In this document: positions 10,457-44,228 of the stretch, piece by piece
How the letters are laid out: the number at the start of each line of letters is the position of its first letter
How positions within the stretch are numbered: position 1 is the first letter of the stretch
Source of the DNA: Cypionkella aquatica
GTDB lineage: Bacteria > Pseudomonadota > Alphaproteobacteria > Rhodobacterales > Rhodobacteraceae
Direction of reading: 5' to 3'
DNA: 64,000 nt
Assembly (NCBI RefSeq): GCF_030161095.1
Contig: NZ_BSPP01000011.1
Coordinates: 1-64,000, forward strand
Made by a program: the position numbers and the translations under genes
Notes under the pieces: model-generated
The model's database searches: none
What the model was told of the DNA's origin: nothing
The model's input: the letters and a program-made list of their open reading frames with translations, nothing else

Positions 10457-10464
10457 AATGTTTA

Positions 10465-10757: not shown

Positions 10758-10788
10758 GAAAAAACGCCGGGGGTTGTTCCCTCGGCGT
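10758..10788 (-). terminator. intrinsic terminator of the 47-codon gene
   Basis: On the minus strand a stem ACGCCG/CGGCGT, extended by further G/C pairs with one mismatch, is followed by six or more T residues (the A-run at 10758-10764 on the plus strand). It lies about 60 nt past the stop codon of the small gene starting at 10992. Confidence 0.8.
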
Positions 10789-10848
10789 GTCTGCGAATCG
10801 GGCCTTTGTGGGCCAATGGTTTTGGGTCGATGTTCTTGGGTCGGTGTA

Positions 10849-10992
10849 TTAGCGGGCGGCGAGTGCGCGCGGTTTGACCTCTGCCTTCACCGCTTCGGGG
10901 CGGCGGCGTTGGCCGCGGGCCCAAGGCAGCGCCACTTGCGGCTCGGTGCTGGCGGCGATTGCGGATTTCATCCAGCGCGGTTGTTTTTTCAT
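10849..10992 (-). CDS. conserved-looking small basic protein, 47 residues
   Basis: A 47-codon frame starting MKKQPRWMKSAIAAS and continuing with a PWARGQRRR segment and a basic Ala-rich C-terminus ending ALAAR. An AAGGA ribosome-binding site lies 8 nt before the ATG, and a good intrinsic terminator follows the stop, so the unit has its own translation and termination signals. I recall small proteins with a similar 'QPRWMKS...PWARG' pattern in Rhodobacteraceae, but cannot verify this. No signal peptide or membrane segment; the composition suggests nucleic-acid or ribosome contact, which is inference. Confidence 0.7.
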   Translation of the reverse strand: MKKQPRWMKSAIAASTEPQVALPWARGQRRRPEAVKAEVKPRALAAR

Positions 10993-11132
10993 CAGAGGCA
11001 TCCTTTGCAGGTTTGTTCATGCGTTGGAGACAATCTGACCGGAATTTGCGGCAAGGATTGGACTGGAAGCAGGGGGGATTAAGGAAAGTTTGTGGTGAAT
11101 TGCGGCAACCAGTGGCTAGCTTTCGCAGAGGC

Positions 11133-13836: not shown

Positions 13837-13982
13837 GCGGTTTCCTGCAGTTGCTTGCGCGTTGTCGGCAAGCCGGGCGGCTATGTCAACGCGGCAATGC
13901 GTCAGATCGCCTTCTTGTGTGACGTGCCTTGTGCGTGGGGGCGGGGCGGCTCATATAGAAGGCTAGCGAAAGGAGGCCCCTG

Positions 13983-14225
13983 ATGACGGCCGGAAACAAA
14001 TTCTTCGACGATATGTCCAAGTTGATGACCAATGCGATGGGCGTGGCGCAGGGTGCCAAGTCTGAGGCGGAGACCGCGATGAAGGGCTTCGTTGATCGCT
14101 GGATGGCGGATCGTGATTTCGTAACCCGCGAGGAATTCGACGCGGTGCGGCTGATGGCGCAGAAGGCTCGCGAAGAGAATATGGCGCTTGCGGCGCGTTT
14201 GGCGGCGCTTGAGGCCAAGGGTTAA
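13983..14225 (+). CDS. ubiK: ubiquinone biosynthesis accessory factor UbiK (BMFP family)
   Basis: An 80-residue protein with an N-terminal amphipathic helix (NKFFDDMSKLMTNAMG), then the BMFP pattern FVTREEFDAVRLMAQKAREEN and a C-terminal coiled coil. UbiK family members are trimeric accessory factors for aerobic ubiquinone synthesis. An AAAGGAGG ribosome-binding site lies 6-7 nt before the ATG. Confidence 0.85.
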   Translation: MTAGNKFFDDMSKLMTNAMGVAQGAKSEAETAMKGFVDRWMADRDFVTREEFDAVRLMAQKAREENMALAARLAALEAKG

Positions 14226-14350
14226 GCGCGGGCCTGTCAGCCTGTTGTGGGCGGCTCTGGCGGGTGGCGGTGCTTGGGCGCGCCCGTCAGCCGCGCCTTC
14301 AGCATTGCTGCACCTTGCGGGCTGATCAACGCCCTGCACCTGCGGCGCGG

Positions 14351-14722
14351 TCAGGGTGTGTCTTCGCCCAAGGTTCTGCGGGCAATCTCTGGCAGTTCTG
14401 GCGCGTTTTCCTTGCGGTCGCGGTGGAGTGCGGCGCGGCCCAGCATCATCATGGTGACAGGCGTGGTGATCATCACGAACACCGCGATCACGGCCTCGTG
14501 CAGCGAGGGGCGACCTTCCAGCCACGAGAACAGCAAGATCGAGGCCAGCACGATTGCCGCCATGCCCCAGCCCGTGCCCAAGGTCGGCGCATGCAGGCGG
14601 TCGTAAAAGCTTTTAAGTTGCACAAGGCCGATGGTGCCGAGCAGGGTCAGCCCGCTGCCCAGAACCAACAGCAGCCCCACCGGGATCGCAAGCCAGAGCG
14701 GGACGGTTTCAAGATGGCTCAT
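14351..14722 (-). CDS. mnhG: Na+/H+ antiporter subunit G (MnhG/PhaG)
   Basis: A 123-residue membrane protein with three transmembrane helices. Family motifs: [24 protein letters not shown] followed by WGM, and a third helix [21 protein letters not shown]. Last gene of the Mrp antiporter operon; its ATG overlaps the mnhF stop by 4 bp. The charged C-terminal tail is cytoplasmic. Confidence 0.93.
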
Positions 14723-15000
14723 TCGATCACCTCGCCACGCAGCAGGAATTTCGCCATAGCCACGGTCGCAACAAAGCCGAGCACGCCGATCACCATCGCG
14801 GCCTCGAAGAAAAAGCTGCTGTTGGTGCGCATGCCGGTGACAAGGAACAGCAGCATCGCCGTGACGTACAGCGTATCAACGCCAATCACCCGGTCTTGGG
14901 CGCGCGGGCCACGGATGATACGATAGCACGCGCAGCCCGCCGCCAGTGCGAGACTGATCTGCGCAAAGCTGAGGGCTGCGAACAAGATGGCGGCGCTCAT
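14719..15000 (-). CDS. mnhF: Na+/H+ antiporter subunit F (MnhF/PhaF)
   Basis: A 93-residue membrane protein with three helices; the core [20 protein letters not shown] is the MnhF signature. The in-frame start at 15054 would add 18 residues inside mnhE; ATG 15000 instead gives the usual ATGA overlap with mnhE and the usual length. Confidence 0.93.
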
Positions 15001-15485
15001 CCGAAAATCTCCAGAAGGGGGGCTTCGTAGCGGTTGCGGATCAGTCCCGACCAATCATCGCCATCGCGCAGATCGAACACATGCAGCAGCAAAAGCCCGC
15101 TGTCCTGATCATGCTCTAGCCATGCGGTGCCGGGCGTGGCGGTCAGGATGATGGCAAGCAGCGCCAAGCCATTGATGCTGCGCAACTCCAGCGGGATGCA
15201 GACAAAACCAGAGCGGCGCTTGCCGCCACGGCCATTGGTCAGGATTGCCCAAGCGACAGTGGCGTTGGATTTCAATATGTCCCAAGTCACGATGCAAAGC
15301 AGTTTTGCCAGCAGATCCCAGCGCCGCAAGCGCACCCGTCGTGGATGCAACGCCCCCATGGCCCAGCCTGCGATCAGGGCAATGGCCGCACCAAGCAGCA
15401 GATTTCCCAGCGAAAACCGGGTCAGCAGCAGCCACATGGCGGTCAGTGCCAAGGACAAGAGCGGATGCGGGAAAAATCGGCTCAT
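14997..15485 (-). CDS. mnhE: Na+/H+ antiporter subunit E (MnhE/PhaE)
   Basis: A 162-residue protein with two to three N-terminal helices and a cytoplasmic domain. The family motifs are [27 protein letters not shown]-like (ATPGT core) and LLLHVFDL. Both ends overlap neighbours by ATGA. Part of the membrane-bound Mrp complex exchanging Na+ or K+ for H+. Confidence 0.92.
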
Positions 15486-17149
15486 GGTGTGTCGTCTTTC
15501 GGCTGATCGACGACGCGGGGGGCGGACATCACGCCCTCGGTGTAGATCGCAGGGGTCAGCAGGGCGCGGGCGGTGTCCTCCATATAGCGGATCGAGTGCT
15601 GGGCTTTGATGGTCAGCAACAAAATCATGCCGATCAGCACAATCACCGGAGCAATCTCTAGCGCCAGAACCTTTGGCGCGGCACCATCAGTCACCCAGAA
15701 GGTGCGGATGCCAATGCGGATCATGCCGATCAGGGTGGCAAGGCCCGACAGCAACAACAACGCCATGAAGCCCCAGATCAGCGGGGCGGCCACGCTGGAT
15801 TGATCCAAGCCAGCGGAGAGCATGGCAAACTTGCCAAGAAAGCCGGAGAGAGGCGGCAGACCCGCCAGCACCAAAAGGCAGGCGCCAAAGCACAGGCCAA
15901 GAATGGTCAAAGTGCCGGGGATGGCAAAGCCGACCTCGGGTGCGCCGTCATCCTCGACATCATCCAGACCGTAAGCATCGGCGGTCAACGCCAGCATGGC
16001 GGCAATGCCGCCTTCTTCGCGGCTCATCGGTTCGATCAACAAAAATAACGCGCTGGTGGCAAGGGTAGAGCTGACCAGATAATAAAGCGCGCCTGCCAGC
16101 AGCGCGCTGCCAGCACCCATCAGGGCAAATCCGGTGACGGCCAAAGCGGTGCCAGAGGATATCAGCACCAGATGCGCTGCCATCCGACCCACGCCTTGCG
16201 AGGCCAGAACACCCAGAAAACCGAAGGTCACCGTGGCCATACCGCCTGCGATCAGCACCTCGGCACCGAAGCCCGCCGACGCTCCGGCCCCTGCGCCAAA
16301 CAACAGCAGGGAGAGCCGCATCACCACATAGACGCCCACTTTGGTCATGATGGCGAACATGGCGGCGACGGGGGCGGCACCCGCCATGTAGGCGGTGGAG
16401 AGCCAGAACGACAGCGGCCACATCCCGGATTTGATCAGAAAGGCAATGCCCATCAGGGCGGCTGCTGCGTGCAGCAGGGGGCGGTCTGCGGCGGGCAGGT
16501 TGGGGATCACCAAGGAAAGCTGCGCCATGTTCAGCGTGCCTGTGACGCCATAGATCAGGCTGACCCCCAGCAGAAACAGCAAAGATGCGGTCAGGTTCAC
16601 GGCGATGTAATGCAACCCGGCGCGCACCCGCAACTGGCCGCTGCCATGCAGCAACAGGCCATAAGACGCGGCCAGCAGCACTTCAAAGAACACGAAGAGA
16701 TTGAACAGATCGCCGGTCAAAAACGCGCCGTTCAACCCCATCAGCAGGAACTGGAACAGAGACTGAAAGTGCTGGCCCTGCTTGTGCCAGCCCGCCGCCG
16801 AATAGATCAGCGCAGGCACCGCCAGCAATGCCGTCAGCATCAGCATCATGGCCGACAGCCTGTCCAGCACCAGCACGATGCCGAACGGCACCGCCCAATC
16901 GCCCAGCAGATAAAAGCCGATGCCGGTATCGCCCGGCAGATGGCTGCCCTTGGCGCGGTTCAACAGCTCAATGGAAACCAGCAGCAGTGCGAGGGCCGAG
17001 CCGATGCTGATGCCCAGCTTGGCGCGGCGCTGGCGTTCATCGTAAAGCAGCATCAAGGCCCCGGCGATGAACGGGATCAGGATGGGCGCGATCATCAGAT
17101 GTTCGGGCGCGAAAAGATCGGGCGCAAAAAGATCGGAGGCGGGGTTCAT
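15482..17149 (-). CDS. mnhD: Na+/H+ antiporter subunit D (MnhD/PhaD)
   Basis: A 555-residue integral membrane protein with about 14 helices of the proton-translocating NADH-quinone oxidoreductase M family. Conserved features include GDLFNLFVFFEVLLAASYGLL with the functional Glu in TM5, and KSGMWPLSFWLSTAYMAGAAPV with the TM7 Lys. Somewhat longer than many MnhD proteins, the extra length being an acidic insertion (DDVEDDGAPE) near residue 396 and a C-terminal hydrophilic tail. ATGA overlap with mnhC. Confidence 0.95.
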   Translation of the reverse strand: MNPASDLFAPDLFAPEHLMIAPILIPFIAGALMLLYDERQRRAKLGISIGSALALLLVSIELLNRAKGSHLPGDTGIGFYLLGDWAVPFGIVLVLDRLSAMMLMLTALLAVPALIYSAAGWHKQGQHFQSLFQFLLMGLNGAFLTGDLFNLFVFFEVLLAASYGLLLHGSGQLRVRAGLHYIAVNLTASLLFLLGVSLIYGVTGTLNMAQLSLVIPNLPAADRPLLHAAAALMGIAFLIKSGMWPLSFWLSTAYMAGAAPVAAMFAIMTKVGVYVVMRLSLLLFGAGAGASAGFGAEVLIAGGMATVTFGFLGVLASQGVGRMAAHLVLISSGTALAVTGFALMGAGSALLAGALYYLVSSTLATSALFLLIEPMSREEGGIAAMLALTADAYGLDDVEDDGAPEVGFAIPGTLTILGLCFGACLLVLAGLPPLSGFLGKFAMLSAGLDQSSVAAPLIWGFMALLLLSGLATLIGMIRIGIRTFWVTDGAAPKVLALEIAPVIVLIGMILLLTIKAQHSIRYMEDTARALLTPAIYTEGVMSAPRVVDQPKDDTP

Positions 17150-17490
17150 TGCTCGCGCTCCTGCCCGTCAACGTGGTCGGTGCCGGTCATCCCGCGCGAG
17201 GCGATCATCACCACCAGAAACAGGGCTGTGGTGGCAAAGCTGATCACGATGGCGGTCAGCACCAAAGCCTGCGGCAAAGGATCGGCATAAGCGGTTGGAT
17301 TGACGAAACCGCCCTTCGCCATGATCGGCGGTGCGCCAACGGTCAGCCGCCCCATCGAGAAAATGAACAGATTGACAGCATAGGACAGCAGGCACAGCCC
17401 AACGATCACCTGAAATGTGCGCGGGCGCAGCAAAAGCCAGATGCCGGAGGCTGCAAGGATGCCGATGGCTGTGGACAAAACAATCTCCAT
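17146..17490 (-). CDS. mnhC: Na+/H+ antiporter subunit C (MnhC/PhaC)
   Basis: A 114-residue NuoK-like membrane protein with three helices. Seen: GLCLLSYAVNLFIFSMG and ADPLPQALVLTAIVISFA, both family signatures. ATG 17490 overlaps the mnhA stop by one base (TGATG). A longer frame upstream to 17712 reads Arg-rich out-of-frame mnhA sequence and is rejected. Confidence 0.94.
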   Translation of the reverse strand: MEIVLSTAIGILAASGIWLLLRPRTFQVIVGLCLLSYAVNLFIFSMGRLTVGAPPIMAKGGFVNPTAYADPLPQALVLTAIVISFATTALFLVVMIASRGMTGTDHVDGQEREQ

Positions 17491-20375
17491 CACTCGGCCT
17501 CCGTCTCGGGTAGGGCTTCGTCTTGGGCGCGCAGACGGGCCGAGCGCAAGGACTGGTGGGCAATCGCAATCAGCATCAGCACGGTCGCGCCGACCACCAG
17601 CGCATAGACGCCGATATCGAACAAAAGCGCGGTGGCGGCGGGCACTTTGCCGATCAGCGGCAGGTTGAGATATTGCGCATGTGCGGTCAGGAACGGATAG
17701 CCGAACAGCCATGCGCCGATGCCAGTGCCGCCGGAAATCAACAGGCCCAGCCCCATCCAGCGGATGGGCAGGATGACGATATGGCTTTCGACCCAGCGCA
17801 CATTCGCCGCGAGATATTGCAGCAGCAGCGCGATTGCCAAAGTGACGCCAGCGGAAAAGCCGCCTCCGGGCAGGTCATGGCCGCGGAAGAACAGATAGGC
17901 CGACATGACGATCATCGCGGGAAACATCCATTGCATGATCACCGAAGGCACGACGAGATAATCCTTCAACGCCTCTGCCGCTTCGCCAAGCTGCTCGGCG
18001 GGCATGCCTGCGCTTTCGGCGCCGGGGCGGAAGCGGCGCAGCAGGGCATAGACGGTTATCGCCACGACGGCCAGAACGCTGATCTCGCCAAAGGTGTCAA
18101 AGGCGCGGAAATCCACCAGAATGACATTCACAACGTTGGTGCCGCCGCCTTCGTAATAGGCATTGCGCAAGAACCAATCGCCGATGTTCGGGATCAGCGG
18201 GCGGGTCATCACCACATAGGCAATGCTGGCGATGCCAAAGCCAGAGATGCTTGCGATCACCAGATCAGCAATGCGCCGGGTGCGGGCGGGGCTAAGTTTA
18301 TCGGCGGCGATTTCCTCGCGGCGTTTGGGCAGCCAGCGCAGACCCAACAGCAGCAGCACGGTTGTCACCACCTCGACCAGCAGTTGCGTCACGGCGAGAT
18401 CGGGGGCGGAAAACCATGCAAAGGTCAGGCAGGTGACAACGCCCGCGCCGCCCAAAAGCGCGAGAGAGGCAAAACGGTGATATTTCGCCTGCCATGCCGC
18501 CCCAATCGCACAGGCGCATCCGATCGCCCACATGATCGCAAAAGCCAGATCAAAACTGGGCAGGTCGGGTTTTTGAAGCAGGGTCAGCCCGCGCCACAGC
18601 GTCAGCGATACGGCGGCGAAAGACAGCACTACGATCAGACGCAGCTGCGGTTGCAACCGTTCAGTCCCGAACAGGCGGTGCAGATCGCGCGGCCATTTCC
18701 AGCTGAAGGCCAACAGAAGCCGTTCAAAGATGCGCTGGGCCCGGATGCGGTGCAGGAAGGGCGGGCCCTCTGGTCCGGCGGCGATCTGTTTGGCCAGCAG
18801 GAAATAAAGCCCGCTGCCAAGCACAATGGCGATCAGGCTCATGATCATCGGAGTGTTAAAGCCGTGCCAGACCGCGATGCTGAAATAGGGCGTATCCGGC
18901 CCCAGCACCGAGCGTGCCGCCATGTTCAAAACCGGGCCAAGCGTCACTCCGGGCAGGATCCCCACCACAAGGCAGGTCAGCACCAACAGCTCAACCGGGC
19001 GGCGCATCCACGGGGTAGGCTCGTGCGGGGTTTTGGGCAGGTCGGTCGGGGCGGGGCCAAAGAACACCGTCATGATGAAGCGCAGCGAATAGGCGACCGC
19101 GAAGATGCTGGCGAAAGTTGCGAGGTAGGGCAGGGCATCATCAAGCCATGATCCATTGTGCCAGCTTGCCGCTTCGGCAAAAAACATCTCTTTCGACAGG
19201 AAGCCATTCAGCAATGGCACACCCGCCATCGCTGCCGCAGCCACGATGGCCAAGGTTCCGGTGACGGGCATCAATCGGATCAAACCACTCAGCCGGCGCA
19301 TGTCGCGGGTACCGCTTTCGTGGTCGATGATCCCAGCGGCCATGAACAAAGAGGCTTTGAATACCGCGTGATTGGCGATGTGGAAGATTGCGGCGACGAT
19401 CGCCCCGGTGCTGCCGATGCCCGCAAGGGCGGTGATAAGGCCAAGATGGCTGATGGTGGAATAGGCAAGCAAGCCCTTCAGATCATGGCGGAACAGCGCG
19501 ATCACAGCCCCAATGATCAGGGTGGCCATGCCAGTGCCGGTGACGGCGAAAAACCATGCTTCGGTGCCACCCAGCGCAGGCGAGAAGCGCACAAGCAGGA
19601 ACACGCCAGCCTTGACCATCGTGGCAGAATGAAGAAAGGCCGAGACCGGAGTGGGGGCGGCCATGGCGTTTGGCAGCCAGAAATGGAACGGAAACTGCGC
19701 GGATTTGGTAAAGGCTCCGATCAGGAACAGGGCGAGGACCGGCAGATACAGCGGATGTGCGCGGATCATCTCACCCGACGATAGCACGCGGTCCAGATCG
19801 TAACTGCCGACGATTTGCCCCAGCAACAGCATCGAAGCCAACAGACAGATGCCGCCCGTTGCGGTGACAATCAGCGCCATGCGGGCGCCGTCGCGGGCGG
19901 CCGGATTGTGGTTCCAATAGCCGATCAGCATGAAGGAGATCACGCTCGTCAGCTCCCAGAACACCACCAGCATGATGATGTTGCCTGACACCAGCATGCC
20001 GACCATCGCGCCGGTGAAGGCCAGCAAAAAGCAGTAAAACCGTGGCACCGGATCATTTTTCGACAGGTAATAGCGGGCGTAAATCACCACAAGCACGCCG
20101 ATGCCCAGTACCAGCGTCACAAAAAGCCAAGCAAATCCGTCGATGCGGAAGTTCAGGTTCAAGCGCAGCGATGGCACCCATGTCACAACGCTGCGCAGCA
20201 CGCGACCTTGCTCGATCTCGGGGTAGAGCACGGCCAGGATCATCAGGCCTGCGATCAGCACCGCGCCGGACAGCCAAGCGGCAGCATTATGGGCATGAAC
20301 AGAGAGGGTTGCGGCAGCAATTGCCCCAGCAAAAGGCAGAAAAATAAGAAACAAGATCAGGTTTTGCTGTAACAT
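17490..20375 (-). CDS. mnhA: Na+/H+ antiporter subunit A fused to subunit B (MnhAB/PhaAB)
   Basis: A 961-residue membrane protein. Residues about 1-500 are NuoL-like, with the TM5 Glu region MLVVFWELTSVISFMLIGYW and the segment TKSAQFPFHFWLPNAMAAPT. Residues 600-720 match the MrpA C-terminal extension (DUF4040; DLAVTQLLVEVVTTVLLLL). Residues about 810-940 are a complete MrpB domain (SAYLFFRGHDLPGGGFSAGV). The fusion gives a six-gene operon for seven subunits, as in the pha systems of rhizobia, and serves pH and Na+/K+ homeostasis. The ATG lacks a strong ribosome-binding site but no better start is seen. Confidence 0.94.
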   Translation of the reverse strand: MLQQNLILFLIFLPFAGAIAAATLSVHAHNAAAWLSGAVLIAGLMILAVLYPEIEQGRVLRSVVTWVPSLRLNLNFRIDGFAWLFVTLVLGIGVLVVIYARYYLSKNDPVPRFYCFLLAFTGAMVGMLVSGNIIMLVVFWELTSVISFMLIGYWNHNPAARDGARMALIVTATGGICLLASMLLLGQIVGSYDLDRVLSSGEMIRAHPLYLPVLALFLIGAFTKSAQFPFHFWLPNAMAAPTPVSAFLHSATMVKAGVFLLVRFSPALGGTEAWFFAVTGTGMATLIIGAVIALFRHDLKGLLAYSTISHLGLITALAGIGSTGAIVAAIFHIANHAVFKASLFMAAGIIDHESGTRDMRRLSGLIRLMPVTGTLAIVAAAAMAGVPLLNGFLSKEMFFAEAASWHNGSWLDDALPYLATFASIFAVAYSLRFIMTVFFGPAPTDLPKTPHEPTPWMRRPVELLVLTCLVVGILPGVTLGPVLNMAARSVLGPDTPYFSIAVWHGFNTPMIMSLIAIVLGSGLYFLLAKQIAAGPEGPPFLHRIRAQRIFERLLLAFSWKWPRDLHRLFGTERLQPQLRLIVVLSFAAVSLTLWRGLTLLQKPDLPSFDLAFAIMWAIGCACAIGAAWQAKYHRFASLALLGGAGVVTCLTFAWFSAPDLAVTQLLVEVVTTVLLLLGLRWLPKRREEIAADKLSPARTRRIADLVIASISGFGIASIAYVVMTRPLIPNIGDWFLRNAYYEGGGTNVVNVILVDFRAFDTFGEISVLAVVAITVYALLRRFRPGAESAGMPAEQLGEAAEALKDYLVVPSVIMQWMFPAMIVMSAYLFFRGHDLPGGGFSAGVTLAIALLLQYLAANVRWVESHIVILPIRWMGLGLLISGGTGIGAWLFGYPFLTAHAQYLNLPLIGKVPAATALLFDIGVYALVVGATVLMLIAIAHQSLRSARLRAQDEALPETEAE

Positions 20376-35494: not shown

Positions 35495-35963
35495 CGCGCC
35501 GCCACGGCTGCGGCTCGCCCGTGCAAGGCAGCTTTGCTGAACTGTCGAATTGTCTATGCGTCAACGCCTTTCGGGAAGAACAACTTCTTCGCCCGCCTGT
35601 TCCTGAACGCGCGCGTCGGTGACGGCATCCACCGCAGTGTTGTTTCAGGTAAGCCGATCCCACGCCTCGCACCCCGCCTTGCGCTTCTCAACCCACTGGC
35701 CCTTATTGAAAGACGGCTGGATATGCTCGCGGTGGATCGGATAATCGAACGGAACGCCCAAAGTGCAGCCCACTTTGTTCCCGTTCAGCACAAATCGCTT
35801 ATGTGACAGGGCTTTGGCGCAAACTATGCAACTCAGCGGGGTGTCTGCGCGTCTAAACGTGCCGATCATCAATGGTGCAAGACTGTTGCAAACCTCTCAG
35901 AAACGCGAAAGCCGCCCTAAAGGACGGCCTGCTAAACGCGATCTAATCACCTTTGAAGATTGA

Positions 35964-35974
35964 TGGAGCCAGGG
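35964..35974. repeat. left attachment repeat (attL candidate)
   Basis: TGGAGCCAGGG, identical to the 3' end of tRNA-Ala at 44156-44166, with the preceding TG also shared. It is about 190 bp before the integrase ATG. The repeat is short for a P4-type core, so part of the original core may have diverged. Confidence 0.65.
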
Positions 35975-35990
35975 TCCACATTTTACCTGC

Positions 35991-36074
35991 CTCACCTTGT
36001 CTCACTTTGTCTATTTTTATCTTGTATCCCCAATGGGTTACAGTTTCATGTTGCCTCACCATGTCTCATTTCGT
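35991..36074. repeat. iterons upstream of integrase (CTCACYTTGT x4)
   Basis: Two tandem pairs of a 10-bp unit: CTCACCTTGT and CTCACTTTGT (35991-36010), then CTCACCATGT and CTCATTTCGT (36055-36074). The pairs start 64 bp apart. A related CTCACCCTGC is at 38156. They are probably arm-type integrase sites or binding sites of the AlpA-like protein; which of these is unknown. Confidence 0.65.
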
Positions 36075-36164
36075 ATAGCTGTTGCGCAATCCCTATGATG
36101 GGAACGGTGATGGGATAGCCCTTGCCGGTTTGTTCACGCACCCGGTTCGCTGGACCTTGGGAAA

Positions 36165-37406
36165 ATGTTGGGAAGCATGATGGCAAGTGGAGAGTCGGGT
36201 ATCGAACCCCCTACAGACCGGGCGAAAAAGCGGTCTGGCACGAACTTCCTTGATGCCAGAAAAGTTAAGGCGGCGAAAGAGGCGGGCATGTATGCGGACG
36301 GCGGCGGGCTGTATCTGCATGTCAGTCCGACCGGGGCAAAGTCATGGATTCTGCGCACAGTCATTCATGGCAAGCGCCGAGACTTGGGGTGTGGGTCCGC
36401 TGATCTGGTGACGTTGGCAGAGGCCAGAGAGGCGGCGCGCAAGTTGCGCAAGGTTGCGCGGGAAGGTGGCGACCCCGCCCGTGAACGCAAGCGGCAGACC
36501 CTCACCTTTGAAGTCGCTGCCCGGCGGGTTCACACGAACCTGTTGCCGACTTGGACAAATGCCCACTTTGGCAAGACGTGGCTTTCGTCGCTTGAGAATG
36601 ACGTGTTCCCCCATATCGGTTCGCGGCAGTTGCAGAGCGTCACCACGGCGGACCTGTTGTCGGTGCTGCAACCGATTTGGACGGTGAAGGCTGACACGGC
36701 GAAAAAGATCAAACAGCGCATCGCGGCAGTTTTCGACTGGGCCAAGGGGGCAGGGCACTTCGCCGGGGAAAACCCTGTGCTGGGTCTGAAAAAGGCGCTT
36801 CCGACTATGAAGGCCACGGGTGCGCACTATGATGCTATGCCGTGGCCTGATCTACCCGCGTTCCTCAAGGTGCTGCATCAGCGCGACGGCATGTCGGCCC
36901 GCTGCCTTGAGTTCATCATTCTCACCTGTGTGCGGTCTGGTGAAGCGCGGGGCGCGCGGTGGTCAGAGATACAGGGCAATGTCTGGACTATCCCCGCCGA
37001 ACGGATGAAGGCGCGGGAAGTGCATCGCGTCCCCCTGACCCCCGAAGCCTTGGCCGTGCTGGATCGGGTGCGGGGGCTGGATGATGAACTGATCTTTCCG
37101 AGTTCCCAGAAGGGCAAGGATGGCCGCGCCAAGGAACAGTCAGATATGGTGTTCATCGCCCTATACAAACGCATGGAGGTGGAGGGGTTCACCACGCACG
37201 GGTTCCGCAGCACGTTCCGCGATTGGTGCGGGGAAAGCGCACGGGCAGATAGGGAGGTTGCAGAGGCAGCACTTGCGCACAGTGTCGGCAATGCGGTGGA
37301 ACGCGCCTATGCCCGATCTGATCTGTTTGACCGGCGGCGGGAACTCATGGTGCAATGGTCTACCTATGCAAAGGGCACAAAGAAAGAAGTTGCTTCCGAT
37401 AACTGA
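36165..37406 (+). CDS. tyrosine-type site-specific integrase (P4 family)
   Basis: A 413-residue integrase. Residues about 27-115 are the N-terminal arm-binding domain (DUF4102 type: DARKVKAAKEAGMYADGGGLYLHV), 120-210 the core-binding domain, 225-400 the catalytic domain. The catalytic residues are all visible: Arg257 (CVRSGEARGARW), Lys282, His345 and Arg348 (THGFRSTFRDW), His372 and the nucleophile Tyr382 (ERAYARSD). It should be active and target the tRNA-Ala gene at the other end of the element. No strong ribosome-binding site precedes ATG 36165. Confidence 0.93.
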   Translation: MLGSMMASGESGIEPPTDRAKKRSGTNFLDARKVKAAKEAGMYADGGGLYLHVSPTGAKSWILRTVIHGKRRDLGCGSADLVTLAEAREAARKLRKVAREGGDPARERKRQTLTFEVAARRVHTNLLPTWTNAHFGKTWLSSLENDVFPHIGSRQLQSVTTADLLSVLQPIWTVKADTAKKIKQRIAAVFDWAKGAGHFAGENPVLGLKKALPTMKATGAHYDAMPWPDLPAFLKVLHQRDGMSARCLEFIILTCVRSGEARGARWSEIQGNVWTIPAERMKAREVHRVPLTPEALAVLDRVRGLDDELIFPSSQKGKDGRAKEQSDMVFIALYKRMEVEGFTTHGFRSTFRDWCGESARADREVAEAALAHSVGNAVERAYARSDLFDRRRELMVQWSTYAKGTKKEVASDN

Positions 37407-37525
37407 TTGCGTTCCCAGCCTAATCCAGCGCACCCCGGTTCGGTAAGTGGCTGAAAAGAAACACATATCAATCTCATGCTGAATCATCTATACACATGTT
37501 GCTTCAACTGAATGAGGGCGGCTTG

Positions 37526-37759
37526 ATGGACAACAGCTTGAGACTGATACGCGATACAGAGGCGGCTGCGCTGTTGGGCTGTTCCCGTGCAACCTTCTGG
37601 CGGCGGGTGAAGGACGGCACGATAGCCAAGCCCTTGCGCATCGGTGGCCTGACAAGGTGGCGAGAGTCTGACCTTGCAAGAGTCATCGACAAGGCGGCGG
37701 CTCTGTCTGCGCCCGAAGTGAAGCTGCAACCCCGCGAACGCAAAAGGATCATGCAATGA
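37526..37759 (+). CDS. AlpA/excisionase-like helix-turn-helix protein
   Basis: A 77-residue protein with the AlpA/MerR-like pattern LIRDTEAAALLGCSRATFWRRVKDGTIAKPLRIGGLTRWRESDL, i.e. an HTH_17-type DNA-binding domain with the RWRESDL end. In P4-like elements AlpA controls integrase expression and excision. The ATG at 37526 has a GAGGG sequence upstream; an in-frame ATG lies at 37496. The stop overlaps the next gene's ATG. Confidence 0.85.
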   Translation: MDNSLRLIRDTEAAALLGCSRATFWRRVKDGTIAKPLRIGGLTRWRESDLARVIDKAAALSAPEVKLQPRERKRIMQ

Positions 37760-38097
37760 CCGAGAAAGCCACTACCGTTACAAAGCCGATGGGCGACCTG
37801 TTTATCGGCCTTCTCTACGGATTGGCCTGCGCCGAAGAACGCGCTGCTAAGAAGCCGAGAATCAAGCGCGATGGAAATGGACAGGTTGTCTGGACTGCTA
37901 CTGATCTGGTTGGGGCGGACTACTTCCAGTATATGCTTGAGACGGGCTTCACCAAGGATATTGCTCTGTGCTTCCTGAACGATCTGACCGAATGGCCGCG
38001 CTACTACCAAGAGCGCTACCCCGTCGAGTATCTGGCGTTCAAGGCGGCGCTTGTGCGAACACTGCCCCCGCGTGAACGCCTGCGAGTGGTGAAGTGA
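37756..38097 (+). CDS. hypothetical protein of the element
   Basis: A 113-residue protein without recognised family. It has a short, weakly hydrophobic segment near residue 15 and a mixed-charge body with many aromatic residues (EWPRYYQERYPVEYLAF). Its ATG overlaps the AlpA-like stop (ATGA), so it is translated from the same message. Confidence 0.7.
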   Translation: MTEKATTVTKPMGDLFIGLLYGLACAEERAAKKPRIKRDGNGQVVWTATDLVGADYFQYMLETGFTKDIALCFLNDLTEWPRYYQERYPVEYLAFKAALVRTLPPRERLRVVK

Positions 38098-38288
38098 ACA
38101 TCTTCCTATCCCTGATCAAAGCGTAATGTAGCATAAGCCAGCACCGCCTGCCTGCCTCACCCTGCACCTGATACCTTCCCCCATGACCATAGACCCTAAG
38201 GGAACCCTGCCGGGCAGCTATGGGAGAGGATACTTACGGGGCTGGTGTGGGCTAAGGAGTCTCTCGCTCGCCCCCTACAGGTGGCGGA

Positions 38289-39851
38289 ATGGACGGCGGC
38301 GGACACGACATAGCGCACCCGGTGCGGCATCGGACCCGCCCCGCCGTGGAGGTGCGGTTTGCGCATTGGCTGCGGCATACCTTCAAAATCCCTTCTGGCA
38401 TGGGTGCCGGTGAGCCGTTTGCGCTGCATCCGTTTCAAATGGCATTTTTGCGCCAGTATCTTGCTGTGGAGGTGGATGGCCCCCTCTGGCGGACCTGCAT
38501 TTTCAGCACCCCCCGCAAACTGGGCAAGTCCACGCTTCTAGGCGCGCTGTTGCTGGGCCGCATGTGCGAAGATAGCCCGATCTATTTGCCCGGATTCACC
38601 GGGGATGTTGCGGCACCATCCGAAAAGCACGCGGGCTACATTGCTGCTGCCCTCAAATCGCTTCTGGAAACCGCCGGGCGCGAAAAGGAACTGCGCAGGC
38701 GGCATGACCCCAAGCCGGGGATTCTGTTCATCGGGGATGCCACACTCACGCTTTCCACCGGCACGCGGGCGCAGGGGCACGGGGCGGACCTTGACCTTGC
38801 CGTGATTGACGAGTGCGGCTTGATCACCTCCAACCAAGCGGACCTGATCACCGGATTCTTTGACGCCCTGTCAGCACGCAACGGGCAACTGATCTTGACC
38901 GGCACCCGTGGGGACAGCCCGGCCTACAACGAACTGATTGACCGCCCCGACAAGCGCACCCACGTCACGCTGTATGCAGCCGACAAGGGCGATGATGCGT
39001 CCGACCCTGAAATCTGGGCTAAGGCGAACCCCGGCCTAGGGTCCGGGCTTGGTGCGATCAAGCCGCTGCGCTTCCTAGAAGACGCCTATGAGAAGGCGCA
39101 GCAAAGCGGTTCGCTGGCAGAGTTTGAGGCTTGGCAGTTGAACAAGCCCCTCGCACCGGGCCGTGAATTGCTGATCGACTATGACACGCTGCGCAAGTCT
39201 TACCGCGATGACCCCCAGACCATCCCCGGCGAACCTGTTCATATCGGGATAGACCTTGGCGGTTCGGCGTCTATGACCGCTGCGACGGTTTCCTATGAAC
39301 AGTCCGGCGTGGTGAAGGTGCTGGGGGCTTTCCCCGGCGCGGATTTGAACCTGTTGGAACGCGGCAAGCGCGATCTGGTGGGCGATCTGTGGGCGCGCTG
39401 TGCCGATGCTGGGGAGTTGATTGAAACCTCTGGCAGCGTGTCGGACTTGGCAGAGTTCCTGCCCGCGCTGATTGCCATGATCGGGCCGCACCCGGTGCGT
39501 TCGGTGTCTTGTGACAGATACCGCCAAGCCGAGTTTGAAACGGCGATGGCACGCGCCCGGCTTGCTTGGCCGGTGATCTATCGCGGCACCGGGCCAAAGG
39601 ACGGCGATGCGGACATTCGCAGCACCCGCCGTCTGTTCATCGCCGGGGCAATCCAGATGCGGCGCAGCCTCTTGCTGGAAGGCAGCATGGCAGAGGCGGA
39701 CGTGAAGGTGTCCACCACGGGCGCTTGCCAGCTTTCCAAATCGCACCCGCACGCCCGTATCGACGTGGCGCAGTCCCTTGTCTTAGCCTGTTCCGCGCTG
39801 TTGCGGGCGCGGGATGAAGTCCGCCCGACCTACGAAGTGGAGATTCTTTGA
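38289..39851 (+). CDS. phage terminase large subunit
   Basis: A 520-residue two-domain terminase. The ATPase has a divergent Walker A STPRKLGKST at residues 73-82 and Walker B LAVIDE at 170-175; motif III-like ILTGTRGDS near 202. The nuclease domain begins near HIGIDLGGSAS (Asp322), with a further conserved Asp in SCDRYRQAEFE and a late DVAQS. It cuts and pumps DNA into procapsids. No small terminase gene is recognisable upstream; the 190 bp before it could include a packaging site. The stop shares a base with the next ATG. Confidence 0.9.
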   Translation: MDGGGHDIAHPVRHRTRPAVEVRFAHWLRHTFKIPSGMGAGEPFALHPFQMAFLRQYLAVEVDGPLWRTCIFSTPRKLGKSTLLGALLLGRMCEDSPIYLPGFTGDVAAPSEKHAGYIAAALKSLLETAGREKELRRRHDPKPGILFIGDATLTLSTGTRAQGHGADLDLAVIDECGLITSNQADLITGFFDALSARNGQLILTGTRGDSPAYNELIDRPDKRTHVTLYAADKGDDASDPEIWAKANPGLGSGLGAIKPLRFLEDAYEKAQQSGSLAEFEAWQLNKPLAPGRELLIDYDTLRKSYRDDPQTIPGEPVHIGIDLGGSASMTAATVSYEQSGVVKVLGAFPGADLNLLERGKRDLVGDLWARCADAGELIETSGSVSDLAEFLPALIAMIGPHPVRSVSCDRYRQAEFETAMARARLAWPVIYRGTGPKDGDADIRSTRRLFIAGAIQMRRSLLLEGSMAEADVKVSTTGACQLSKSHPHARIDVAQSLVLACSALLRARDEVRPTYEVEIL

Positions 39852-40201
39852 TGCGCACCGATACCCGCCCGATCAATTCCCAGCACTGGCGCTACACCGT
39901 CCGGCCCTTCGTCGCGCATCGGGCAAGCCTGCGCTGCGAACATTGCTTTCAGTTCCTAGGGCTGTGCGGGCAGGTGGACCACATCGTGCCGCGTTCTGAA
40001 ATCGGGATGCTGGGTATTAGCGTCTTTGACCCCAGCAACCTGCAATACCTTTGCATCTCTTGCCATTCCGCCAAGTCGAACCGGGAACGGGCGGCGGGGC
40101 GCGAGAAGAAACCACCCAAAGGCCACAACCGCTCACACGTCCCCGGACGCGACAAGTTCCTTGACGCAATCGGATTAACCCCAGCCCCCGAAAGGAACTG
40201 A
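39851..40201 (+). CDS. HNH endonuclease
   Basis: A 116-residue HNH nuclease: zinc-binding CEHC, then VDHIVPRSE with the catalytic His, NLQYLCISCHSAKSNRER with the second Cys pair and the N/H residues. Phage HNH proteins of this type work with the terminase in DNA packaging. Start ATG 39851 overlaps the terL stop (TGATG). In HK97-like phages the HNH gene usually precedes the terminase genes, so the order here is reversed. Confidence 0.9.
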   Translation: MRTDTRPINSQHWRYTVRPFVAHRASLRCEHCFQFLGLCGQVDHIVPRSEIGMLGISVFDPSNLQYLCISCHSAKSNRERAAGREKKPPKGHNRSHVPGRDKFLDAIGLTPAPERN

Positions 40202-40203
40202 CT

Positions 40204-41439
40204 ATGCTGAAATCCCAAACCGTAACCCTTGCGCAGTCCAAGCGCCGCGAACGCATGGCCGCAATCCAGAAGACCGAGACGCTTTCCGATGAAGGCCGCG
40301 CCGAACTGCGCAGCCTTGCCGATGCTTATGAAGCGGCAGAGGTGGAAATTCGCGCCGCGCTGCTGGTGGAAGGTGCCGAACGTGCCCAGATTGCCGAACC
40401 CGACAAGGCAGGCACCGACTTTGACCGCGAGTGCCGTTCGTTTGATCTGTCGGCTGTCTTGGCATCTCTGACCGAAAGCAAGCCGCTGACGGGCCGTGAG
40501 GCCGAAGTGAGCGCCGAACTCGAAACCCGCCACGGCGCAGGCCAGAAGGGCACCCGCTTTCCTTGGGAAGCCTTGGAACAGCGCGCGGACGTGGCAACGG
40601 ACACGCAACCGGGCCTTGGTGGCAACCTTGCATCCCGTCCGACCATGAACGCGCTGGAACGCTTCTTTGAATCCTCTGCGGCGGAACGCTTCGGCGTGCG
40701 TGCGATGCAGGTTTCCGGTTCGCCGGTGTTCCCCGAAATCACGGCGGGCGGTGCCCTGTCGTGGGTGGCTGAAGGTGCGGGCGCGGATGCTTCGGCCATT
40801 GCCACCACCACCAAGACCCCGACCATCAAGACGGCAACCGGGCGTTACCTGATCACGCGCCAAGCCATCCGGCAAAACTCCGCCCTTGGGGCCATGCTGC
40901 GCCGTGATCTGTCGGAAGTGCTTCGGCAAGGTATCGACTTGGCTGTGTTCCAAGGCACTGGGGCGGATGAACAACCGGCGGGCCTGAATACCCTGCTGAC
41001 CGCAGGCCGCACCGCTGCACTGACCGCCAAGGCGTCTTTCTCTGCGCTGCTGTTGCGGGCGGTGGAGATCATGGAGACGGCCAAGCTGTCGGACCCGTCG
41101 CAGGTTCGTATCGCCGGGGCACCGATCCTGATGCAAACGCTCATGGATTCCTTGCTGGCTGGCACGGCGGTTTCCGAGTTCGACCGCCTGAAATCGGCTG
41201 GCTTCGCCCCCATGTTTTCCTCGCAGGTGTCGGCACGGGCGGCGCGGGACGCTACGGGCAAGGGTGCATCTACGGTTTACTTCGGCGCGGGTGCCCGAAC
41301 TTGCCAAGATCGGTGTCACGTCCCTGTCCACGGGTTCCATGATGAGTGCAGACGTGGCAGGCCGCGCGCGCGCCGTTGGAACGCTGGTGGGCGCTGGCAT
41401 GACGCTGGAGAACGCCTTGCAACTGGTGGGCTGGGGTAA
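40204..41439 (+). pseudogene. HK97-type major capsid protein, C-terminus lost
   Basis: The first about 358 residues are an HK97-fold capsid protein: an N-terminal charged coiled-coil delta-like domain (to about 105), then VFPEITAGGALSWVAEG, GRYLITRQAIRQNS, AVFQGTGADEQPAGLNTLL. After TVYFG (about 41281) the frame reads Cys/Arg-rich junk to the stop at 41439, where the normal last 40-60 residues of the fold should be. In the +1 frame the same DNA reads like the end of a portal protein. A deletion between two neighbouring genes explains this. The product probably cannot assemble. Confidence 0.8.
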
Positions 41440-41464
41440 AGCGGATGGGCGGACCTATGAATAG
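41285..41464 (+). pseudogene. probable portal-protein C-terminal remnant
   Basis: In the frame +1 to the capsid gene the DNA encodes about 59 well-formed residues: VPELAKIGVTSLSTGSMMS and then RARAVGTLVGAGMTLENALQ, ending RTYE. The helix pattern (charged, Leu/Val, 'AGMTLENAL') resembles the last helices of HK97-family portal proteins. The stop overlaps the next gene's ATG by 8 bp in ordinary phage fashion. Portal identity is inference; the reading frame being a coding remnant is better supported. Confidence 0.5.
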
Positions 41465-41837
41465 CGATCAGATCAAGGCGGCGTTCCGCCGGGCCGCAAA
41501 GGTCAGCCCCCTGTATCGGCCTTTTCAGTTGTTCAAGCTGGCGACGGGCGGGCCGCACAACCGGCCCTTGGCCCACACGTTCGACTTCATGGAGTCCGCG
41601 CGCGGCACGCTGCATTGGCGCGAGTTGGCAGGCCCTGACTATCGGGAAGGCGTGGTGACGCTGCTTGGGCACTTCACGGTGTTGCCTGATCTGATCCTTG
41701 CCGATGATGGGCAATGGCTGGGGGTGGTGGAAGGCGCTGGGGCTGATGCCCTTGGGGCGTCCTACAAGATCATCGTTCGGCGCTGGGAAATGGGCGTGGA
41801 CGACCACACCCCGGTCATCCGCAACGCGGCACCTTGA
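41457..41837 (+). CDS. phage-derived hypothetical protein
   Basis: A 126-residue protein of unknown family. N-terminus MNSDQIKAAFRRAAKV; an aromatic, Gly-rich middle (LLGHFTVLPDLILADDGQW) suggests a beta-rich fold. Its ATG overlaps the preceding remnant by 8 bp, and its stop is followed within 3 bp by the next gene, so it lies in a phage-type gene cluster. A head-completion or connector role is possible but not shown. Confidence 0.65.
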   Translation: MNSDQIKAAFRRAAKVSPLYRPFQLFKLATGGPHNRPLAHTFDFMESARGTLHWRELAGPDYREGVVTLLGHFTVLPDLILADDGQWLGVVEGAGADALGASYKIIVRRWEMGVDDHTPVIRNAAP

Positions 41838-41839
41838 TC

Positions 41840-42289
41840 ATGGGAGGGTTCAGCCGGGCGGGGGAAGTGCCCATAGGCATCCAGCGACAAGGCGAAATGC
41901 GCGAGATGATGCTTGGGGCAGCGTCCGCCTTTGGCATCGGCCCGGAAGTCGCGGCGCTGATGGAAGACCGGCACGATAGCAGGTTACAGGATTGGCCGCT
42001 GTCGCGTCTTCTGTCCCGCTCAAGGGAAATCTCTGGTCTGTCCAAGACCGAGGTTGCGCGCCGGGGCGGGCCGAGCCGCACAGTCGTAAAGACGCTGGAG
42101 AATCCAACCGATGCAGACCGGCTGCGGAATCCACCTGTGAGCCTTTTGGTGAAGTTGTCAGAGGGCTACGGATTGCCTTTGGCCTTGGTTCTAAATGCGG
42201 CAATGGTGGAGGCTAAATTGCTTCCCGAACCGGGTTCGTTTGGTGGACAGCCTGTAAGAATCCGTAAACGCAAGATAAAACCAGCTTAA
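41840..42289 (+). CDS. XRE-like helix-turn-helix protein
   Basis: A 149-residue protein. Residues about 50-115 look like a Cro/CI-type helix-turn-helix (LSRLLSRSREISGLSKTEVARRGGPSR, then VVKTLENP). The C-terminus is basic (RIRKRKIKPA). The start is uncertain: ATG 41840, a TTG at 41834, or ATG 41897; none has a clear ribosome-binding site. It may be the element's repressor. Confidence 0.6.
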   Translation: MGGFSRAGEVPIGIQRQGEMREMMLGAASAFGIGPEVAALMEDRHDSRLQDWPLSRLLSRSREISGLSKTEVARRGGPSRTVVKTLENPTDADRLRNPPVSLLVKLSEGYGLPLALVLNAAMVEAKLLPEPGSFGGQPVRIRKRKIKPA

Positions 42290-42357
42290 AATAGGCGGTG
42301 TCGCATAAACCGAACGCTAGTTTATTCAATTATGCCGGTATTGTTTTTCATGCTATT

Positions 42358-42379
42358 ACTCCTTTGTCCCTAAAGGAGT
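42358..42379 (+). promoter_or_regulatory. hairpin covering a Shine-Dalgarno site
   Basis: A perfect 8-bp inverted repeat ACTCCTTT / AAAGGAGT with a 6-nt loop. The right arm contains the ribosome-binding site AAAGGAG of the gene starting at 42389 (10 nt spacing). It could block translation as an RNA hairpin or serve as an operator as DNA. The surroundings are AT-rich and promoter-like. Confidence 0.6.
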
Positions 42380-42388
42380 TGAAGAAAA

Positions 42389-42808
42389 ATGACCAATCAA
42401 AATACCACCTGCGAACAACCTTCTGATCAAGCGGGCTATCAAGTTCCCATTGATCGCGCGGCGGGGCTATTGCAGCGGCTTGCGCTCTATATGCCACGGC
42501 CAAATCTGGTAGTGCTGCTCTTCCTTATGCGGGAATCCTACCGCCAGAACACCGCAGAGGTGGCTATATCGACGTATGACGTTGCAGAGTTGACGGGGCT
42601 TTCCCGCCTAACCGTGTCAGCTTCGTTGAAGCAACTCACAGCACTGGGGTTGCTGAAATCCAAGCCCCACTATGGGCCAAGCCCTTGTGTTTACGAGGTT
42701 GATTTGGACAACGTGGAACTTCGTGCCGAGGATGAATACCTGAAGCTGCGCGAGATGTTTGCCGATTCAAGCAAGCCTTCGGTGCGCAAGCGGACACGCC
42801 AGAACTGA
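42389..42808 (+). CDS. winged helix-turn-helix protein of the element
   Basis: A 139-residue protein with a single winged helix: LVVLLFLMRESYRQNTAEVAIS (helix 1), YDVAELTGLSRLTVSASLKQLTALGLL (HTH), and a wing with SPCVYEVDL. The layout is like the DNA-binding part of replication initiators and MarR-like proteins. The ATG has a good but possibly sequestered AAAGGAG. It precedes the replication-O-like gene and may act in replication or its control. Confidence 0.7.
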   Translation: MTNQNTTCEQPSDQAGYQVPIDRAAGLLQRLALYMPRPNLVVLLFLMRESYRQNTAEVAISTYDVAELTGLSRLTVSASLKQLTALGLLKSKPHYGPSPCVYEVDLDNVELRAEDEYLKLREMFADSSKPSVRKRTRQN

Positions 42809-42880
42809 TCGAAAAAAGAAGAACCCGCCCGGTGGCTGAATACCGAGCGGGGTAATGTTTCGATAAGGAGTTCATACCCA

Positions 42881-43753
42881 ATGAACAACCCAACTATAGT
42901 GAAAACTGATTCGGATGGCAATAAAAAAGCCTCGAAAAAGAAATACACACGAAAATTAGATCTTTTTACAGAACACCTCTACATTCAATGGATAAACCAT
43001 GAATGGGCAGCGGTCCTGACTTCCTCTGAATTTAAGATCGTGATGGCCGTAGCCGCGCGGTCTATTTGCTGGGGCAAGTGGCGAGAGATAATCACATTGA
43101 CGCACTTCACTCATGGCGTCACTCCAAAAACCAGACCCGGTGCGGCAAAGCACTACAACGGCACCGGGCTTTCGCGGCCAACGGTGATCAGAGTCCTTAG
43201 GGTTCTTCTGCATGAGGGCTTCATCTACCGGGTGCCGATAGGTGACACATGGGCCTACGGGCTAAACGTCCGGGCGATGGCAACAGACCAAGACCCCTGC
43301 CGGGCACGGAAAGCAGAATCGACAGCCGCGCGGAAACTCAAGATCGCGGTATGTAAGGAGCGGCGGTCTACCCTGATCCGGGCGCAAGCCTTGTGGCAGG
43401 ATACGGGAAGTGAAAAGGCGCGCGAAGCCTTCATGGCACTGTGTGGCGGTGACGTAAAAAACGTGTTTTCTCAAAACGGAAAGATATGCGAAAACAATGA
43501 TTTGGAAGGTTTTGCTAGTAACATGGCGTTACCCTTTAATTTAGAACATACACCTTCTAAAAACCTTACAGGTTTATTAGAGGTTGCACCTGAAGGTGCG
43601 GGCGAGAAGCCAATTTTTCCAGAAGCAAGGGTAAGGCGTAGGTCTAAAGACCTTGGTTGCGGCACCGTTGCAGGCAGTATCTTTCCAGTGCGGCGCAGCC
43701 GTTACCCCGCAAGACCCAAGGGGCAACGCCCCGCCACGCAAAGGACTCCATAG
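42881..43753 (+). CDS. phage replication protein O-like (winged helix)
   Basis: A 290-residue protein. Residues about 35-125 have the replication-O pattern: LTSSEFKIVMAVAARSICWGK, then a helix-turn-helix TGLSRPTVIRVLRVLLHEGFIYR. The rest is basic with low-complexity ends. In lambda-like phages protein O binds the origin. The codon use at both ends is unusually AT-rich compared with the chromosome (runs of AAA/AAT), a sign of foreign origin. A GGAG site is 10-11 nt before the ATG. The last 40 residues may overlap another frame. Confidence 0.65.
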   Translation: MNNPTIVKTDSDGNKKASKKKYTRKLDLFTEHLYIQWINHEWAAVLTSSEFKIVMAVAARSICWGKWREIITLTHFTHGVTPKTRPGAAKHYNGTGLSRPTVIRVLRVLLHEGFIYRVPIGDTWAYGLNVRAMATDQDPCRARKAESTAARKLKIAVCKERRSTLIRAQALWQDTGSEKAREAFMALCGGDVKNVFSQNGKICENNDLEGFASNMALPFNLEHTPSKNLTGLLEVAPEGAGEKPIFPEARVRRRSKDLGCGTVAGSIFPVRRSRYPARPKGQRPATQRTP

Positions 43754-44127
43754 GAGCGCCGCCAGAGGGCCGTCTCACCCTTCGCCGCTATTCATCCCTA
43801 TCCCGCCAGCACGAAGGGCCTCTGCGGGCCGCGTTTGAGCCTGTGGCGAATCCTGCCCTTGTCTCGCCCCAAGCGCGTAGCGCCCCGCCGATCCAGCCTT
43901 GCGCCGTTGGCGCTTCCCCGCATGTGGTGCCTGTGTGGCGCGCGTGGGTGATCCTGCCCGCGCATGACGGGCGCGCTTGCGCTGTGTCTGGTGTCAATCT
44001 TGCGGGTTTGTGGGGGATGATCGGTTCGCCCGTGAAGCGGATTCGGGCGTGCAAATCCCGTTTCTTCTCAATCCCGACGATGGTATTTATGATGGGAACG
44101 CTTTTTGCGTTTCCCGTAAGTATCTGA
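43657..44127 (+). CDS. possible hypothetical gene at the element's right end
   Basis: A 156-codon frame overlapping the end of the replication-O-like gene. Its second half (from about 43830) has chromosomal-type codon use with G/C third positions and reads VVPVWRAWVILPAHDGRACAVSG; the first half is Arg/Pro-rich. No start with a ribosome-binding site and no family recognised. It may be a shorter gene or a remnant. Confidence 0.3.
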   Translation: MRHRCRQYLSSAAQPLPRKTQGATPRHAKDSIGAPPEGRLTLRRYSSLSRQHEGPLRAAFEPVANPALVSPQARSAPPIQPCAVGASPHVVPVWRAWVILPAHDGRACAVSGVNLAGLWGMIGSPVKRIRACKSRFFSIPTMVFMMGTLFAFPVSI

Positions 44128-44152
44128 TTTTATTGTATAAAAATTAAGGTGG

Positions 44153-44228
<76 letters not shown>

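Follow-up and report, generated by a model that had tools for sequence, protein, structure and literature searches.

A probable deletion-inactivated copy of a tail-less, head-encoding phage satellite at a tRNA-Ala gene of Cypionkella aquatica

Capsid-forming phage-inducible chromosomal islands (cf-PICIs) are phage satellites that carry an integrase. They are described as encoding a major capsid protein (MCP), a protease, a portal, connectors, both terminase subunits and an HNH protein, and as using the tails of helper phages (PMC10690885). Published accounts give them an average size of 14 kb and place them mainly in Enterobacteriaceae, several Firmicutes groups, Pasteurella and Morganellaceae (PMC10803314), assign their capsids to three radiations (PMC11389934) and mention an AlpA-type regulator and a Pri-Rep replication initiator among their genes (PMC10448857); cf-PICIs (Alqurainy et al. 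2023) are further described in PMC13230959. A report of capsid-forming satellites in Rhodobacteraceae was not found in the open-access literature. Here, the first 64,000 nucleotides of contig NZ_BSPP01000011.1 of Cypionkella aquatica, a member of the Rhodobacteraceae, were analysed (referred to as the window), with the focus on an element at a tRNA-Ala gene (positions 35961–44166). Genomes and loci outside the window are designated by G and L numbers, respectively.

The locus is very probably a deletion-inactivated copy of a tail-less, head-encoding, cf-PICI-like integrative phage satellite. It has intact relatives of near-constant size which lie at tRNA genes, and its kind is therefore read as that of a tail-less capsid-forming satellite. 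An initial annotation, made from the sequence of the window alone, had listed integrase, AlpA, large terminase subunit (TerL), HNH, capsid and helix-turn-helix (HTH) genes, all in one direction, and this is borne out by Pfam and PHROG matches and by the strand of every gene between the repeats. It had also taken the broken capsid gene to argue for a decaying element instead of a satellite. Decay holds for this copy, which is a deletion derivative, but not as a substitute for the satellite, since the kind of element to which the copy belongs is capsid-forming.

Parts of the packaging and capsid block are still recognizable. The terL gene (38289–39851, + strand; PF20441) is open and its product 90% identical to TerL of L037/L027; a profile that combines the window TerL with those of four relatives matches 6z6d, a solved TerL structure, with E=4e-27. 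It is adjoined by an HNH endonuclease gene (39848–40201, +; PF01844), followed by the N-terminal ~360 codons of an MCP gene (40204–41290, +; PF05065), whose C-terminus is lost. In comparison with all eight relatives measured, 2163–2218 bp are missing, from about codon 360 of the MCP gene to the last 57 codons of the portal gene, and in a blastn alignment with L037 the gap falls between 41287 and 41304 (+), which marks the deletion junction. Lost from the window copy are the C-terminus of the MCP, the protease, the adaptor and most of the portal. The MCP frame continues out of frame into the portal remnant (last 57 codons, 41291–41464, +) and stops at 41439. The capsid gene is thus indeed broken, as initially annotated, not by a point lesion but because about 2.2 kb are missing. 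The element measures 8192 bp from repeat to repeat, determined as for the relatives, and addition of 2191 bp gives 10383 bp, in agreement with the family size. Having lost a working MCP, protease, adaptor and portal, the window copy cannot make a head by itself and is almost certainly no longer able to build particles.

Up to the junction, neither the MCP nor the portal remnant contains a stop or frameshift. The dN/dS values against L037 are 0.15 for the MCP remnant and 0.14 for the 57 codons of the portal, near those of the intact genes (TerL 0.10, HNH 0.14, stopper 0.10, HTH 0.14), all of these being rough values, as dS exceeds 1 for five of these six genes. The deletion therefore seems recent relative to the divergence of the window copy and L037. 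In L037/L027 itself, the capsid gene shows an in-frame stop 12 codons after an upstream ATG (L037 11886–11940), and as homology suggests, translation probably starts at the next ATG.

Relatives with an intact capsid gene, for which the initial annotation had proposed a search, were found. All 13 elements mapped gene by gene carry TerL, HNH, MCP, protease and portal, and an adaptor was found by similarity in 10 of them. The order TerL, HNH, MCP, protease, portal, with adaptor and neck variable, is observed in L037–L039, L044–L056, L081, L109, L110 and L115, and the close relatives keep the arrangement terL-HNH-(neck)-MCP-protease-adaptor-portal; in L114, TerL, MCP, protease and portal are present and HNH was not detected. 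The 14 elements bounded by tRNA repeats measure 9588–11147 bp (mean 10525 bp, s.d. 447 bp), and this near-constant length suggests a small capsid fitting one genome. Family elements are situated at tRNA genes for Ser, Glu, Thr, Asn, Pro, Phe, Met and Ala. A repeat of the tRNA 3' end on the far side was seen in 13 of the 15 relatives tested that have a tRNA in the stretch. It is 14–16 bp long in L037, L038, L049, L052 and L053, 46–51 bp long, in some cases with one difference, in L039, L044, L045, L050, L051, L054, L055 and L081; L114 in addition has a repeat of 17 bp at tRNA-Met. No tRNA repeat was found in L048 nor in L031, whose contig starts inside terL.

These relatives were collected by several searches. 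Viral contigs searched with TerL yielded five close (L027–L031, 77–90% identity) and five distant relatives (L032–L036, about 25%), to which a portal search added L109 and L110. A scan of genome contigs with two short patterns gave at least three loci, namely L037 of Pseudotabrizicola alkalilacus, which is the same element as L027, L038 from a Rhodobacteraceae metagenome-assembled genome and L039 of Albibacillus kandeliae. TerL identity to the window is 77–90% for L027/L037, L028, L029, L030, L031 and L038, while L039, L044 and L045 are 50–61% identical to L037; the contig of L029 ends in the protease. Regions of 12–20 kb were taken for 15 places, and three further relatives were included afterwards. 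Within the host's family, TerL is matched in 23 of 149 genomes, and at E<=1e-60 in 4 of 390 genomes of the order, the host's own genome included in both counts. Wide regions were viewed for 16 of the 31 TerL matches listed in family genomes (the window, G092, which by contig coordinates is L039, and 14 others), the remaining 15 being mostly weak or partial. In the regions viewed, the terL-HNH-MCP-protease-portal block was seen for 13 of the 149 genomes: the host's own, where it is broken, and G092, G130, G050, G001, G145, G116, G143, G094, G026, G051, G044 and G147. Two TerL-matching genomes, G047 and G025, are without it. Portal matches at E<=1e-10 occur in 4 of 385 genomes of the class, the host's own, G785, G572 (on contig fragments) and G075. 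G785, which belongs to another family than the host, has TerL, MCP, protease, adaptor, portal and a 17-bp repeat; HNH was not detected there. The match in G075 (L116) is a portal-only remnant of the distant group at 11924–12574, beside a tRNA-Asn at 13427, and represents another decayed copy. L038 holds two related head-encoding blocks in tandem (271–4609 and 7081–17916), the distant one (TerL 29%) to the left of the close block at tRNA-Glu. Among INPHARED records, TerL matched 116, all below 60% identity and at about 25% among the matches listed, and MCP matched 20, with 25–28% identity among the matches listed; the portal query found no match in this collection. A search of plasmids returned 10 records with 21–28% identity.

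Assignment of the head proteins relies on families, relatives and folds. The family protease matches PF04586, with the HK97 proheadase TIGR01543 just below cut-off. The portal was called through relatives of about 28% identity which match portal PHROGs (L049, L081), and its profile gives a marginal match in the PDB (9i8c, E=0.078). In some members, the adaptor matches PF05135 or phrog_442/40. A neck-like gene is located between AlpA and TerL in L028–L030 and L038 and after HNH in L044, L045 and L110; it was found neither in L037 and L039 nor in the window, including the stretch between alpA and terL. Its product (A6) shows weak PHROG neck matches and no significant match in a fold search.

Downstream of the junction, the window copy keeps a gene (41445–41837, +) that had been left unnamed in the initial inventory of head genes and whose product is a predicted head-tail stopper or head-completion protein. 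Its AlphaFold2 model (pLDDT 78.9) has two PDB matches with E<=0.001, a P1 connector (9ums) and a T4 neck (9mkb). Seven of the eight entries at ranks 3–10 are, by title, necks or connectors of phages or Staphylococcus aureus pathogenicity islands (SaPIs), including phiCD508, FCWL1, Pa193, SaPI1 and SPP1, with E reaching 0.023 at rank 10; TM-scores up to this rank range from 0.40 to 0.56. Against BFVD, 20 matches with E<=0.001 were obtained, several of them named head-tail joining or adaptor proteins.

In agreement with the initial annotation, no tail or lysis family was matched among the 11 window stretches scanned (PHROGs and/or Pfam). From the relatives 180 open reading frames (ORFs) were called, of which 82 distinct ORFs other than the core genes were scanned, many of those beyond the 82 being core genes placed by similarity. 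The families shown for the 82 ORFs comprise primase, prim-pol, DnaB-like helicase and initiator families as well as those of head closure, head-tail adaptor and tail-completion/Neck1; they include none for a tail tube, tape measure, baseplate or lysin. The window copy and the close relatives have weakly O-like initiators, several distant relatives primase or prim-pol proteins, and an AlpA-like protein was not detected in every distant relative. With respect to small terminase (TerS) families, the AlpA-like protein has a sub-threshold match to phrog_141 (E=0.072), and the match of the HNH protein to phrog_4581 (E=1.8e-6) is driven by its HNH part; a divergent TerS may nevertheless be present.

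The left attachment repeat, tgatggagccaggg (35961–35974, +), is identical in 13 of 14 positions to the 3' end of tRNA-Ala(GGC). This tRNA gene (44153–44228, −) is intact, points with its 3' end towards the gene block and harbors the right repeat (44153–44166, −). The tRNA-Ala gene is the integration site. For the terminal repeat, a length of 14 bp with 13 identical positions is the better reading. Throughout the 64-kb window, only these two positions match the 14-mer of the tRNA 3' end in at least 13 of 14 letters, and of about 5000 14-mers drawn at random from the window, none has a partner of this quality in the 300 bp upstream of int. Moreover, the 14–16 bp cores of L037, L038, L049, L052 and L053 begin at the same tRNA position as the window repeat. 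Upstream of int lie three copies of a 26-nt direct repeat (35988–36077, +; repeat family D1), and a 13-bp word, tatgatgggaacg, is found near both ends of the element (36094–36106 and 44088–44100, both +) and nowhere else in the window. We infer that the 26-nt repeats and the tatgatgggaacg copies are possible integrase arm sites.

Ten congeneric tRNA-Ala regions were compared. One of them, in a sister species (G503/L081), holds a likewise tail-less element of the family at the same tRNA-Ala, with int, TerL, HNH, MCP, protease and portal in 9.6 kb and a 48-bp repeat; the other nine showed no family member by protein search, except for an integrase piece in G499. This piece (L080) is 54% identical to the window integrase. 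Partial copies of the tRNA-Ala 3' end without the block are present 5.9 kb from the tRNA in G499 (L080 7026) and 8.5 kb from it in G500 (L082 4679), and other islands may use the same tRNA-Ala site.

The remaining genes of the window copy are all encoded on the + strand. A tyrosine integrase with arm, core and catalytic domains (36165–37406; PF13356, PF22022, PF00589) is followed by an AlpA/excisionase-like HTH_17 protein (37496–37759; PF12728 above cut-off, PF05930 AlpA below cut-off with E=0.0077) and by a 113-amino-acid protein (37756–38097), which has neither a family match nor an assigned function and does not resemble the gene found at the equivalent place in L038. Behind the stopper gene, an Xre-type HTH protein (41834–42289; PF13560, below cut-off) precedes two winged-HTH proteins, one weakly resembling replication protein O (42389–42808; PF04492, E=1.7e-4, below cut-off) and one weakly similar to O-like replication initiators (42881–43753; phrog_678, E=0.0011). 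Replication-like genes are hence present, as initially annotated, but their similarity is weak. The reading frames of the integrase, AlpA-like, 113-amino-acid and replication-like genes are open.

For the intact family, the following cycle is proposed. The integrase would insert a DNA of about 10.5 kb at a tRNA 3' end, and upon infection by a helper or its induction the element would be excised by the integrase together with the AlpA-like protein, and its replication would be started by an initiator or primase that it encodes itself. MCP, protease and portal would build a small HK97-type head, into which TerL and HNH would cut and package a unit near 10.5 kb, while the element's own adaptor and stopper would seal the head and offer a surface to which the tail of the helper phage could dock; tail and lysis functions would come from this helper. 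The window copy, although it keeps int, the AlpA-like gene, TerL, HNH, stopper and replication-like genes, cannot complete such a cycle by itself.

A possible tail donor is encoded by the host itself, a tailed prophage on contig C10 (L113; G000:C10:112000–131900). It carries a PF04860 portal, an S49 protease, a gp6 connector, head completion, gp17 tail completion and HK97-gp10-like genes. PF10145 has no match in this prophage, and a 736-amino-acid ORF without Pfam match is our guess for its tape measure. However, co-occurrence is weak evidence, because in the strain carrying the cf-PICI EcCIEDL933 none of 17 prophages is reported to have mobilised it detectably (PMC11389934).

Head genes of phage type in a visibly deleted element could also be left over from an ordinary tailed prophage which lost its tail, its lysis genes and part of its head. 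This origin is very unlikely. The relatives keeping the block are without recognised tail genes and of near-constant size (9.6–11.1 kb between repeats), the deletion lies within the head block and not in a tail region, and the tailed prophage of the host differs in its portal and protease families and in a TerL that was not picked up by the query with the element's TerL. A full-length tailed prophage at the tRNA-Ala site, named in the initial annotation as the possible source of such a remnant, was not found among the ten congeneric regions. Alternatively, the window copy might be a working minimal satellite, a derivative that travels in heads supplied by an intact relative or by a helper phage. 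All its remaining genes are open, and the four intact genes measured have dN/dS values of 0.10–0.14; these values, however, mostly reflect the time before the deletion, the out-of-frame joint of MCP and portal looks accidental, and no second copy of the family portal or TerL was found in the host genome. The deletion was seen at no other locus examined, with no search aimed at the junction as such. Taken together, a working derivative is improbable, if slightly less so than a prophage remnant. Rhodobacteraceae are known for gene transfer agents, which brings a gene-transfer-agent-like or domesticated head module into consideration. This explanation is the least credible of all, as its own integrase, attachment repeats and replication-like genes, together with a variety of tRNA sites, are signs of a mobile element.

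Several observations weigh against the reading as an inactivated capsid-forming satellite. The viral contigs L032–L036, with TerL of about 25% identity, are without the block, L032 having a protease besides TerL, and may be ordinary phages; the block is likewise absent from L057 and L058, so that a TerL similarity of about 25% is not in itself a sign of family membership. For the close-group portal, neither PHROG nor NCBIfam gave a direct match, and from rank 11 onward HtrA-type proteases also appear among the matches of the stopper model (E=0.027). About 100 of the 180 ORFs of the relatives were placed by homology or lay outside the family scans, and the families shown are the best 25 of 61 and the best 25 of 27 in two scans, beyond which a single tail match is possible; among these same families no TerS family was recognised. 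An empty site was not found among the congeners searched. Among 14 congeneric genomes, 12 show good conservation of the right flank of the element, whereas the left flank is matched in five of the 14 and never beside the tRNA, and an unoccupied site could therefore not be shown. Finally, excision, helper dependence and particle formation in the family are inferred from gene content.

The intact relatives are provisionally regarded as a lineage of capsid-forming satellites, which differs from the described cf-PICIs in host group, in smaller size and in the lack of a recognised TerS. A more far-reaching proposal is offered tentatively: they may constitute a distinct alphaproteobacterial lineage whose genome is fixed at about 10.5 kb, whose replication modules and tRNA targets vary and whose compact terL-HNH-MCP-protease-adaptor-portal-stopper block packages without a conventional small terminase, the part of which an AlpA- or Xre-like HTH protein perhaps takes. 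A single deletion, as in the window, would remove the heads but leave integrase, terminase and replication-like genes in place, and intact copies might carry such defective ones. Provided that the family functions as in the cycle proposed above, head-making satellites are a regular part of Rhodobacteraceae-type genomes, while the window copy itself, as a deletion derivative, is of local interest only.

Comparison with known systems revealed likeness to HK97 in the TerL match to 6z6d, which we take to be HK97 TerL, in an HNH gene adjoining terL, in the HK97-type protease and in the MCP family PF05065. Unlike HK97, the family has no recognised tail genes, and its block ends with the portal gene, preceded by protease and adaptor. 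P4, the other model put forward in the initial annotation, has a P4-type integrase and an AlpA-like protein, encodes no capsid of its own and remodels that of its helper; P4-like satellites are characterized by an alpha primase and the capsid-remodelling genes psu, sid and delta. The family resembles P4-like satellites in integrase, AlpA-like protein and size, their mean being given as about 10 kb (PMC10803314). In contrast to P4, it encodes a head-building set, and the presence of an MCP argues against a P4-like element; of the two initial suggestions only the capsid-forming island, backed by the intact tail-less relatives, is retained. Own head and packaging genes are shared with the Streptomyces satellites MulchRoom and MiniFlayer, which are described as having direct terminal repeats and virulent helpers and as lacking a primase homologue (PMC10690885); the present family, by contrast, lies between attachment repeats and carries replication genes.

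The closest correspondence is with the cf-PICIs. Like these, the family is a chromosomal island of phage scale with AlpA-like protein, TerL, HNH, MCP, protease, portal and connectors and no recognised tail. Capsid, protease, portal and connectors are all found in the family, the connectors being recognised by Pfam/PHROG or by fold in several elements, but not in the window copy, where MCP and portal are truncated and protease and adaptor lost. TerL and HNH are open in the window and present in 13 of 13 elements, and an AlpA-type regulator and an integrase occur in the window and its relatives. Differences are the size of 9.6–11.1 kb, the host range, which covers Rhodobacteraceae and, with G785, at least one further family of the Alphaproteobacteria, and the absence of a recognised TerS. 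In conclusion, likened to the described cf-PICIs by description rather than by sequence or gene order of named examples, the family can with confidence be said to work like a cf-PICI and is provisionally classified as one.

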